Assembly: GCA_028284265.1 (NCBI GenBank)
Contig: JANQRZ010000008.1
Span: 62,001-126,000 of the forward strand
Reading direction: 5' to 3'
Source of the DNA: Rhodothermales bacterium
Lineage (GTDB): Bacteria; Bacteroidota; Rhodothermia; Rhodothermales; JANQRZ01
DNA: 64,000 nucleotides
This document shows positions 32,104-36,574 of the stretch, in pieces; position 1 is the first letter of the stretch; each line of letters begins with the position of its first letter. A program made the translations under genes and the position numbers. Under the pieces are notes generated by a model. It did not search any database and had not been told where the DNA came from. It worked only from the letters and a program-made list of their open reading frames with translations.

Positions 32104-32775
32104 TCAGGCCTCATCGAGGATACCCAACTCGCGCCCTAAGCTGCGTGCGGCTGGCGTCACAATCTGGCCGGGGCGAATCACGATTCGTTGCCCCTTCAGC
32201 CGGGCCTGCCGCACGTCTGTCTCGGTGACGACGCGCCCCGTCGGCCTGACTTTCGTGGACGAACAGGCAAGGGGTGTTGGCACCGAGAGGGAGACGTCGC
32301 GTGCCCACCGAGCGGTGTCGCCTTCTTTGAGGCCCGCAGCGAGCGCGTCGGCCCGGTCGAGGCAGATGAAGCCTTCGCCTTCGTTCACGTTCACATCGCC
32401 GAAGGCGACAGGGCCGGCCTGCACGGTCACGGTTTGTCCCGTCGTCAGTCCCCATGCTCGAACGAGGCCGGGTGGTAGCGCAAGAACGCGGCGCACGGGT
32501 TCGACAGTCGGAGCTTCCACCGATCCGGCGGGGCCACGCAGTCGCAGCGACGGTGCTTCGCCGAGCGCGTGGCGGTCGAGCGCGTCGAGGACAACTCGGA
32601 ACGCGGAGCCGACCTCGACGGCAATTGGTACCTCGCGCTGGGTCGAGCGGGCGACGAACACCTGCTCGCTGCCCCGGAGCGTGTAGCCGTCGCCGAAGAG
32701 GGCGTGTACCCCGGTCGGGGTGAGCACCGCGCGGGAGTGGGCGAGGCGGAGGGGAATCGCGTCGGGCCGGATCAC
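32104..32775 (-). CDS. PduL-like (phosphotransacylase-fold) protein with altered metal sites
   Basis: A protein of 223 residues from a GTG that overlaps the upstream TGA by four bases (GTGA). The layout resembles the PduL phosphate acyltransferase fold: IPLRLAHSRAVLTPTGVHAL then LFGDGYTLRG, and a second lobe with GDVNVNEGEGFICLDRADAL and AAGLKEGD. PduL enzymes transfer acyl groups between phosphate and CoA using Zn held by His-x-His motifs. Here the first lobe reads SRAVLT where RHVHLS is usual, and the second has Cys138 in place of the expected His. Residues 181-221 form a terminal module (VVTETDVRQARLKGQR...TPAARSLGRELGI) that is homologous to the N-terminus of the neighbouring RpiB-like protein. 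Confidence 0.7.
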   Translation of the reverse strand: MIRPDAIPLRLAHSRAVLTPTGVHALFGDGYTLRGSEQVFVARSTQREVPIAVEVGSAFRVVLDALDRHALGEAPSLRLRGPAGSVEAPTVEPVRRVLALPPGLVRAWGLTTGQTVTVQAGPVAFGDVNVNEGEGFICLDRADALAAGLKEGDTARWARDVSLSVPTPLACSSTKVRPTGRVVTETDVRQARLKGQRIVIRPGQIVTPAARSLGRELGILDEA

Positions 32776-33440
32776 AGTGCGTCGGGCGAGCCGGGAAGAA
32801 ATTTGGCCTCCACTTCCTCGATCTTCTGCACGCGCTTGGCGTGGCGGCCTCCCTCGAAGTCTGTCGTGAGGAAGATGGCGAGGATGCGCTTGGCGACTTC
32901 GATGCCGCAGGTGCGGCTGCCGAGGGTAAGGACGTGCGCGTCGTTGTGGGCGCGGGCGTTGAAGGCTGCGAATTCGCTCGCGCAGCACGCAGCGCGGACG
33001 CCCGACACCTTGTTCGCCACCATCGCTGAGCCGACCCCCACGCCGTCGAGCATCAGCCCAAACTGCACCTCGCCGAGGGCGACGAGCCGCGCCACAGCAA
33101 AGGCAAAGTCGGGATAGTCCACCGAGGCCTCCGAGTCGGTCCCTACGTCGCGCACGATCCAGCCGAGGGATTGGGCACGCTCGATGAGCGCTGCTTTGTA
33201 CGCGAACCCCGCATGGTCGCAACCGACGGCGAGCGTCTTCGCCGGAGCAGAACGGGTGGGAGCGCTAGGGCGTGTTGCCTGTGCTATCTCGCTTCGTTCG
33301 ACGAGCGCGATCCCGTGATCGCGGGCGGTGTCGCGGGCGAGGGCGGTGACGAGCGCGTTCGGGGCGATGGCGAGCGAGCGCTGTCCCTCGGCGAGGGCGC
33401 GGCGCACGTCGCGCTCGGTGATGAGAGGGCGTCCGGGCAT
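32772..33440 (-). CDS. RpiB/LacAB-family isomerase-like protein with N-terminal module and Cys-to-Asp change
   Basis: A protein of 222 residues. Residues 6-46 are an extra module (LITERDVRRALAEGQ... VTALARDTARDHGI). The RpiB/LacAB fold follows (GCDHAGFAYKAAL, VDYPDFAFAVA, ANKVSGVRAACC, HNDAHVLTLGSR, EGGRHAKRV). Ribose-5-phosphate isomerase B uses a Cys in ICGTG as base; here the site is LDGVG with Asp132, while the ring-opening His in HND and the phosphate-binding residues remain. The substrate may therefore differ from ribose 5-phosphate. Overlaps the PduL-like gene by GTGA, suggesting coupled translation. A TAGCTTTC box lies 4 nt before the ATG. Confidence 0.85.
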   Translation of the reverse strand: MPGRPLITERDVRRALAEGQRSLAIAPNALVTALARDTARDHGIALVERSEIAQATRPSAPTRSAPAKTLAVGCDHAGFAYKAALIERAQSLGWIVRDVGTDSEASVDYPDFAFAVARLVALGEVQFGLMLDGVGVGSAMVANKVSGVRAACCASEFAAFNARAHNDAHVLTLGSRTCGIEVAKRILAIFLTTDFEGGRHAKRVQKIEEVEAKFLPGSPDAL

Positions 33441-34863: not shown

Positions 34864-35346
34864 GTGACCGATGTAACAACACTTCGCATCCTTGCAGACA
34901 AGGCTCTTGAAGTGCCTTGTGGGCCGGAGTGTGTGGAGTGGGCTGCTTCGAAGTTAGCTGAAGGGCGTGGCGGACGGTACCTCGCTATGCTCGCGAGTGT
35001 AGCGCCACCCTATAACCATTTTGAATTAGCAGAACTCCGTGACCAAGCGCTAGCTGAGATGGGTGCCCCGGAGCTTGAGGGAGATGAGGCAGTCCGAGTG
35101 TACGTCGCCGAACGTTTCCGGCTGGCGTTTGCGGAGGAGGCAGATTTATTGGAGGTTCTTCGCGAGGCAAAAGACATCTGCATCCAGCACGATTATCTCG
35201 ACAGTGTCTACGATTTCTACTTGCTTTACTTTGCCTATGATGAACTGCAGCACCGAACACAGCAGCACTATTGGGAGGGAGCTACGCGGGATAATATCGA
35301 GCGCCTCATCGAGGAGCGGGCACGCACCCTTGTCACTTCGGTGTAA
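34864..35346 (+). CDS. Hypothetical helical protein, less GC-rich
   Basis: A protein of 160 residues from a GTG five nt after the gdh stop. It has no signal or membrane segment and is acidic and mostly helical (FRLAFAEEADLLEVLREAKD, NIERLIEERARTL) with an aromatic patch SVYDFYLLYFAYDEL. Codon use is less GC-biased than in gdh or in the following gene. Its last 14 nt overlap the convergent envC-like gene. Family not recognised. Confidence 0.6.
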   Translation: MTDVTTLRILADKALEVPCGPECVEWAASKLAEGRGGRYLAMLASVAPPYNHFELAELRDQALAEMGAPELEGDEAVRVYVAERFRLAFAEEADLLEVLREAKDICIQHDYLDSVYDFYLLYFAYDELQHRTQQHYWEGATRDNIERLIEERARTLVTSV

Positions 35347-36574
35347 GCCAGCCCGCCGGGTCCACGGCCTCGCCGCCGGAGAAGAGGGCGAAGAACACAC
35401 CTGCGCCTAGCGGATCGTCGGCGGTTCCGGCGCGGCCTACGCCCTGTCCGGCGCGGACTTCTTCGCCCTGCCGCACGTCCACCGACGAGAGGTTGCCGTA
35501 GATCGTTGCGTAGTCGCCGTGCGAGACCATGATGCAGGTGCCGTAGCCCGGCATCGCAAAGACGCGCGTCACGAGGCCCGCGAACACGGCGCGGACGGAC
35601 GCCGTCGGGGTGGTCGAAAGCTCCAGCCCAATGCTCCGGGTCTGGGTGCCGTAGACGGGGTGCGTTCGCGTCCCGAACGTGCCAGTCACGACACCCGTTG
35701 CGGGCCACGGCAGCCGCCCTCGGTTCTGCCGGAACGAGCCGGTCAGTTCCACGAAGGCCGACTCAGCGGCTTCGGCGGCACGGGCGGCCTCGGTGTTGCC
35801 TGCAGCGCGGGCGGCCTCGGCTTCGGCGCGGGCACGCGCGGCCTCCCGGCGGCGGGCGGCTTCGGCGGCGGCGATCATCTCCTGAATCCGTGACTCCAGC
35901 CGGTTCGCGTCGTCCTGCCGCTGCTGCAGCTCGGCTTGGAGTCCGCTCCGTTGCTGCCGAAGCTCCGTCACGAGGACAGCCCGTTCGCTCTTGCGGCTGG
36001 CGAGGGCCTGCTGCTCGGCCCGGCTCTCGGCGAGGAGCGTGTCGATGCGTGCTGCCGATGAGTCGAGCGCGGCCTGTCGGCTTGCCATCTCCAACTGGGT
36101 CTCGGTGATCTGCCCGAGCTTGCTCTGGCGCTGGCGGCTGAAGCGCTGGAGGTAGCGTGCCCGAATCAGCATCTGGTTGATCGATCCCGCTGAGAGAATC
36201 AGGGCGAGGTCGCCAATGCGGCCGCGCATATAGGCGTTGCGGGCGTGGACAGCGTACTCCTCCTTGAGGGCTTGCAACTCGGTCTCCAGAAACGCCATCG
36301 ACTGCTGGATGGCGACGGCTTCGTTGCTGAGGAGCGCTTGCTGTTCGCGGTACGACTCGATGAGCGCCTCGCGGACAGCGATTTCTCGGTCGAGTTCGTT
36401 CAGGGCAGCGGCGGCGTTGGTCTCTTCGCGCCGGGTGCGGAACAGGCGCTGCTCGTAGTCGGCGATCTGGCTCCTCAACTCGCGCAGGCGGGCTTCGGCA
36501 GCCTGCTGGTCATTCTGTGCGGCGGCGGGCAAGGCCGCAAGCACGAAGAGGAGTAGGAGGAAGCCGCGTGGCAT
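35333..36574 (-). CDS. EnvC-like murein hydrolase activator with degenerate LytM domain
   Basis: A protein of 413 residues: a signal peptide (MPRGFLLLLFVLAALPAAAQ), a coiled coil from about 22 to 270 (AEARLRELRSQIADYEQRLF, later an Ala/Glu/Arg-rich stretch) and a C-terminal M23/LytM fold (LPWPATGVVTGTFGTRTHPV onward). The Zn ligands expected in active M23 enzymes are missing: GLELS in place of the H-x-GID region, YGNLSS where Y-x-HLS is usual, and GAGVFFALF where the H-x-H occurs. This matches EnvC/NlpD-type proteins, which activate amidases at division rather than cutting peptidoglycan. It follows in the same direction as the DUF4292 gene. Confidence 0.9.
   Translation of the reverse strand: MPRGFLLLLFVLAALPAAAQNDQQAAEARLRELRSQIADYEQRLFRTRREETNAAAALNELDREIAVREALIESYREQQALLSNEAVAIQQSMAFLETELQALKEEYAVHARNAYMRGRIGDLALILSAGSINQMLIRARYLQRFSRQRQSKLGQITETQLEMASRQAALDSSAARIDTLLAESRAEQQALASRKSERAVLVTELRQQRSGLQAELQQRQDDANRLESRIQEMIAAAEAARRREAARARAEAEAARAAGNTEAARAAEAAESAFVELTGSFRQNRGRLPWPATGVVTGTFGTRTHPVYGTQTRSIGLELSTTPTASVRAVFAGLVTRVFAMPGYGTCIMVSHGDYATIYGNLSSVDVRQGEEVRAGQGVGRAGTADDPLGAGVFFALFSGGEAVDPAGWLTPK

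Follow-up and report, generated by a model that had tools for sequence, protein, structure and literature searches.

An RpiB-like and a PduL-like protein of a Rhodothermales bacterium share a EutQ-type module and probably belong to a scattered microcompartment

The window, meaning the whole stretch of 64,000 nucleotides analysed here, holds on its reverse strand two overlapping genes whose products are an RpiB-like protein of 222 aa (32772–33440; N-terminal module, linker and RpiB domain, assigned by PF02502, TIGR01120 and a structural model) and a putative PduL-like pseudoenzyme of 223 aa with a GTG start (32104–32775; assigned by Foldseek, hhalign and a profile search of the PDB). The pair raises the question why two unrelated folds carry a similar segment at opposite ends, and which system they serve. 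An earlier note on this DNA had proposed that the segments are homologous, that both proteins lack canonical catalytic residues and that the pair is a remnant of, or a satellite to, a bacterial microcompartment (BMC); it had also read the gene overlap correctly as GTGA, located at 32772–32775 on the reverse strand and joining the RpiB stop to the PduL-like start. The reading preferred here, with a probability of about 80%, is that both proteins are shell-docked cargo or inner-shell parts of a scattered, FRAG-like BMC in which the isomerase would be active and the PduL-like protein an adaptor.

The shared module and its relatives

When the two modules were aligned (residues 6–46 of the RpiB-like protein, 33303–33425, and residues 181–221 of the PduL-like protein, 32113–32235, both on the reverse strand and delimited by profile and model) 18 identical residues were found over 38 columns, and the local score of the whole proteins was 79 compared with 34.5 ± 5.8 (maximum 61) for shuffled sequences (n = 2000). 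In the six frames of the window an HMM built solely from RpiB modules matched the PduL-like copy (E = 1.7e-6) and an HMM of the PduL module matched the RpiB-like copy (E = 8.5e-8), each HMM containing the window's own copy of its kind, and neither gave any further match in this search. The homology suspected earlier is thereby borne out, and an origin by chance or as a linker is ruled out by the shuffle scores and the cross-profile E-values. As judged from its sequence the module is a real homologous domain of ~40 residues with the consensus ITExxVRxAxxxGxxxLxVPxxALVTPLARDxARxxGI; both copies are predicted to form beta-alpha-beta-alpha-beta mini-domains, and in the RpiB-like model the module reaches a pLDDT of ~95 versus 52–59 in the true linker. 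Pfam has no model for this segment, its EutQ model beginning at residue 85 of EutQ, past the module.

Comparison with known proteins revealed a match to residues 2–47 of E. coli EutQ (hhalign, E = 6e-8, probability 94.7, ~31% identity over 45 columns) and to the C-termini of a C. difficile TIGR02536 protein (E = 7e-7; gene right behind a PduL-type eutD), of a flavoprotein-like protein of the Rahnella pdu locus (E = 8e-6; gene between PduL and EutN) and of Salmonella PduM (E = 5e-5, a short and weaker match), together with EutT (E = 8e-4), all of them microcompartment proteins. Tandem modules matched the C-terminus of PF15953 in 8 of 8 cases (E from 2e-4 to 0.03) and shuffled tandems in 0 of 6, the doubling itself inflating the PF15953 scores; at the level of sequence these matches support the link to PduM without proving it. 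Deletion of residues 9–41 in Salmonella EutQ parts cargo from the shell, and H1/H2 were assigned to the shell in the same work (PMC12487888), the main text of which does not mention PduM; PduM is a shell-cargo linker required for full shell-cargo association (PMC9132943).

Going by homology only, the pair carries a EutQ-type H1/H2 shell-binding module. EutQ has the homologous module at its N-terminus, where it serves to keep cargo attached to the shell (PMC12487888), but EutQ also contains a cupin acetate kinase domain and H3/H4, to which encapsulation peptides bind. In the pair the partner fused directly to the module is RpiB or a PduL remnant; in the RpiB-like protein the H3/H4 cargo-binding part is absent and a predicted disordered linker, then RpiB, follows. 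PduM (PF15953), the shell-cargo linker (PMC9132943), and TIGR02536, both from Pdu/Eut loci, have a C-terminal module, but their remaining domains are unrelated to RpiB. The TIGR02536 gene (L245, 12441–13166) and the Rahnella gene (L248, 3408–4103) both lie behind a PduL-type gene and have the module at the end, an arrangement that possibly parallels the RpiB/PduL-like pair.

Profiling of the module, as suggested in the earlier note, showed that its carriers within the class (146 genomes) are RpiB and the PduL-like protein only, the latter adjoining RpiB in two families (f1 and f11). In the phylum the module occurs in 66 of 395 genomes, and in all 16 further phylum loci that were read its carrier is an RpiB with Asp at the position of the base Cys, followed in two of them by a second module protein. 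In other Bacteroidota one family (f21: L126, 6630–7307; L130, 6615–7310; L259; L261) has, directly behind module-RpiB, a protein that lacks the ligands and ends in a module; in L126 and L130 the profile match covers the module only, and these two proteins are likely of PduL origin.

The PduL-like body and the RpiB active site

The degenerate PduL body comprises residues 1–165 (32281–32775, reverse strand). Its fold was recognised by Foldseek, in which the model of the protein (pLDDT 86) matched 5cuo (E = 2e-11, TM 0.74 on target), by hhalign against four canonical PduLs (E = 1e-6) and by searching the PDB with an eight-sequence profile, rPduL 5cuo being the only significant match (E = 0.0013); the protein gives no match to Pfam PTAC (PF06130), even at E = 1. 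In rPduL two zincs are bound through the absolutely conserved His48, His50, Glu109, His157, His159 and His204 (PMC4784909). In the profile alignment Arg15, Val17, Ala52, Leu98 and Phe136 stand opposite His48, His50, Glu109, His159 and His204 respectively, while a gap and Leu98 in RRVLALP take the place of the second HxH (His157/His159), and HxH was found in none of ten homologues. The first HxH is thus missing as had been remarked before, but the residue opposite the second-lobe His is Phe136 and not, as had been proposed, Cys138. Compared with the PduL phosphotransacylase (PF06130, 5cuo) the predicted fold is the same, whereas all metal ligands and the Pfam match are lost and a C-terminal module is gained. 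Among eight genomes the mean pairwise identity is 63% for the module versus 42% for the body, and in each of the 28 pairs the module has the higher value.

From these sequence comparisons we conclude that PduL catalysis has probably gone and that the dock would be what selection keeps; the protein is most likely a pseudoenzyme turned structural, the adaptor role being argued from the losses. A PF06130 search found no canonical PTAC in the 146 class genomes, with a model that also misses the degenerate copy, and an odd PTAC or a Pta-type enzyme may be present elsewhere in these genomes.

The RpiB-like protein matches PF02502 (E = 1e-48) and TIGR01120 (146.1 bits, cut-off 138.65) from residue 70 on, and its model (pLDDT 90) aligns with RpiB 2vvr at TM 0.96 on target. 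The alignment confirms the earlier observation of Asp132 (codon 33045–33047, reverse strand) at the position of the base Cys, and two residues on the Thr of the proton relay is Val, a position that is Val, Ala or Thr across the Asp clade. In a tree of RpiBs, for which the catalytic column was used too and from which the Gly-type actinobacterial RpiBs were filtered out, one branch (support 99/97) parts 54 sequences with Asp from 30 with Cys. The Asp clade takes in RpiBs beside shell genes, and throughout it the DHxGF, DYPDFA, RxHN and GGRH motifs and the glycine loop are largely kept, also in the RpiBs of SPU loci with DeoC. Both proteins do lack canonical catalytic residues, as first noted, but the meaning differs for each, the change from Cys to Asp being a replacement conserved clade-wide with the remaining active site kept. 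RpiB carrying C69S or C69A in place of its Cys has no activity on R5P, and in the mycobacterial enzyme an acidic residue, Glu75, is the base (PMC4783025); together these make an Asp base with an altered substrate range the likely reading. On the evidence of its sequence the RpiB-like protein is probably an active but altered isomerase with Asp as base, and loss of activity is the main alternative.

RpiBs of the SPU type (PF02502) share the Asp and the clade, and two members from Chloroflexota carry the module, but an SPU RpiB stands in a locus with DeoC, shell and aldehyde dehydrogenase (AldDH) genes whereas the RpiB gene of the window is unlinked. One of the two, an SPU locus (L125), has the order module-RpiB, DeoC (TIGR00126, 286 bits), BMC-T-like, BMC-H, BMC-P and AldDH, and in the other (L128) BMC-H and BMC-P lie behind module-RpiB. 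The RpiBs of these two loci appear to have both the module and an EP-like helix. Six Asp-clade RpiBs, mostly from Chloroflexota, lack the module and have an EP-like helix in its place, so the module is not the sole targeting device; it looks as if it had replaced the helix in targeting.

Microcompartment genes in the genome and in the class

No shell gene lies in the window, as stated earlier, but a search of the whole genome, likewise suggested then, revealed two BMC-H and three BMC-P genes. The BMC-H genes stand in tandem on contig C14 (PF00936), and contig C16 holds all three BMC-P genes, two of them in tandem (PF03319, EutN_CcmL); the positions of the shell genes are C14:294k, C16:419k and C16:301k, with RpiB at C3:95k and an acylating acetaldehyde dehydrogenase, the AldDH, alone on C7 (C7:73k; TIGR02518, 546 bits, below the cut-off of 620). 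The pair has no genetic linkage to shell genes in the source genome and close relatives, and a three-sequence profile found no BMC-P gene near RpiB or AldDH in the relatives. The genome has the FRAG traits of shell genes dispersed without a defined locus and of a three-member BMC-P set. The likeness to FRAG consists of shell genes at several sites, the BMC-P triplet and the remote AldDH (PMC8217296), but the main text of that source (Sutter 2021, PMC8217296) reports neither an isomerase nor a PduL-like cargo for FRAG. The same source describes FRAG as having no evident signature enzyme and most of its genes far from known enzymes (PMC8217296).

The tail of the AldDH contains two helix-like motifs, SWMDEIEARLRxRAG and a terminal LxxxxIxxLxxxFRK, kept in 25 of the 25 tails that could be read. 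Such motifs fit the expectation of C-terminal encapsulation peptides on type I AldDh (PMC8217296); the AldDH C-termini (L202–L228) have two separate helix-like motifs instead of a single peptide. The second BMC-H (L006, 9224–9718, C14; loci L023–L047) has a C-terminal extension, MTVRELRALARxxxxLPIQGREIARANKxELLxAL, in all 25 relatives read, which resembles the Rho N-terminal domain (E = 0.075) and may be compared with the C-terminal extensions of EutK and PduK.

In the other families the gene order is envC-like, RpiB, lpdA on one strand, with lpdA behind RpiB in 18 of 19 cases and the envC-like gene directly before it in 18 of 19. In the window a gene for an EnvC-like M23 protein (35333–36574, reverse strand; assigned by sequence and synteny with relatives) lies upstream of RpiB; between the two stand a gene for glutamate dehydrogenase and a small one on the opposite strand. 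The lpdA of the source genome is found elsewhere, with a BMC-P gene directly upstream (L008, 8786–10721, C16). The upstream neighbour of lpdA is accordingly BMC-P here and module-RpiB in 18 relatives (loci L060–L077), and it is possible that dihydrolipoamide dehydrogenase is tied to the organelle.

Of the 146 class genomes, 26 contain both the module and BMC-H, one has the module alone, one BMC-H alone and 118 neither (BMC-H above cut-off in 27 and the module in 27, a module match at E = 0.004 being ignored). Fisher's test gave p = 1.7e-26 for the class and p = 1.7e-17 within the order alone, both values being inflated by relatedness as the co-occurrence lies in one order and includes shared ancestry. 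The two exceptions are G139 (89% complete), with module and no shell, and G089 (loci L043 and L212), with BMC-H and AldDH and neither module nor RpiB. The latter is the order's sole shell-bearing genome without RpiB and module and could show the role of the organelle minus the isomerase. The same AldDH is present in 26 of 27 shell genomes and, among the shell-less genomes of the order, in G139 only; module-RpiB follows the same genomes. In genomes without a shell from other parts of the class the RpiBs are of the housekeeping kind, with an alignment that starts only at residue ~67, and those read have Cys. Genes of the DeoC/LacD family occur in 146 of 146 class genomes, and DeoC is uninformative as a co-occurring partner because it is universal.

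Alternative readings and a proposed arrangement

The idea of a satellite to a compartment is backed by the genome-by-genome coincidence of shell genes, AldDH with its encapsulation-like tail and module-RpiB, while that of a remnant is unsupported because this genome and its relatives have the shell set; a remnant without shell is ruled out by the two BMC-H and three BMC-P genes. That the pair is a functionless, drifting relic of a lost microcompartment would fit the diverged, ligand-less PduL-like body, but it is highly improbable given a full shell set, AldDH and RpiB retained in 26 genomes, and mean identities, over the same eight genomes, of 76% for the RpiB core and 62–63% for the modules. 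Still harder to credit is that the pair consists of standard RpiB and PduL enzymes whose shared segment is a generic linker, alike through chance or low complexity: the RpiB-like protein does exceed the cut-off of TIGR01120, and most of its active-site residues are conserved, but the cross-profile matches, the confidently predicted fold of the segment and the loss of every PduL ligand contradict it. It is also very unlikely that the module is an E3-binding-like (PSBD) domain recruiting dihydrolipoamide dehydrogenase instead of a shell dock. Locally it resembles PSBD helix 1 and the ITExDVRxA motif, with the halves in reverse order, and both lpdA directly behind module-RpiB in 18 relatives and BMC-P directly before lpdA in the source genome could be read this way; re-joining the halves in PSBD order with X spacers, however, gave no gain (16.1 versus 15.8 bits), which leaves a circularly permuted E3-binding domain rejected as a likeness of motif only, the homologous stretch of EutQ binds to shell proteins (PMC12487888), and lpdA and RpiB are not adjacent in the family of the source genome.

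Two further alternatives concern one protein each. The PduL-like protein might keep a zinc-free ligand binding, e.g. sensing of CoA or phosphate, as its predicted intact fold would permit, but the phosphate-site Arg103 aligns near Gln46 and the body is less conserved than the module (42% versus 63%), and this seems quite unlikely. A better case, though one we would still bet against, can be made for an RpiB-like protein that is catalytically dead as well, both proteins being purely structural shell tethers: C69S and C69A leave RpiB without activity on R5P (PMC4783025) and here the relay Thr has changed as well, against which stand the other active-site motifs, conserved throughout the Asp clade including the SPU-locus RpiBs, and the mycobacterial enzyme, which works with the acidic base Glu75 (PMC4783025).

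In the preferred reading of shell-docked cargo or inner-shell parts, the BMC genes would be scattered over the chromosome in a FRAG-like manner, and the module would be a EutQ H1/H2-type shell-docking domain placed on the N-terminus of the isomerase and the C-terminus of a former PduL. Docking, which we infer from homology and co-occurrence, would hold both proteins inside the shell next to the acylating AldDH, which would bring its own C-terminal encapsulation-like helices. The isomerase would most likely still convert a sugar phosphate from the compartment pathway, Asp132 serving as its general base; the PduL-like protein could not be a zinc phosphotransacylase and would most likely serve as a structural adaptor.

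More tentatively, and with doubt slightly outweighing confidence, the module may be a general, unnamed shell-docking domain common to EutQ, PduM, EutT, TIGR02536, RpiB and the dead PduL, and thus a cargo finder, the FRAG organelles of Bacteroidota being sugar-phosphate metabolosomes in some lineages of which PduL has become a structural adaptor. An isomerase, a dead PduL and an acylating AldDH would then be tied to a FRAG-like organelle by a domain and by co-occurrence, not by neighbourhood, and one domain would join the separately characterised linkers EutQ and PduM and offer a search handle for hidden cargo far from shell genes. A PduL with a decaying catalytic body and a retained dock would, if true, be an organelle enzyme in the course of becoming a scaffold.
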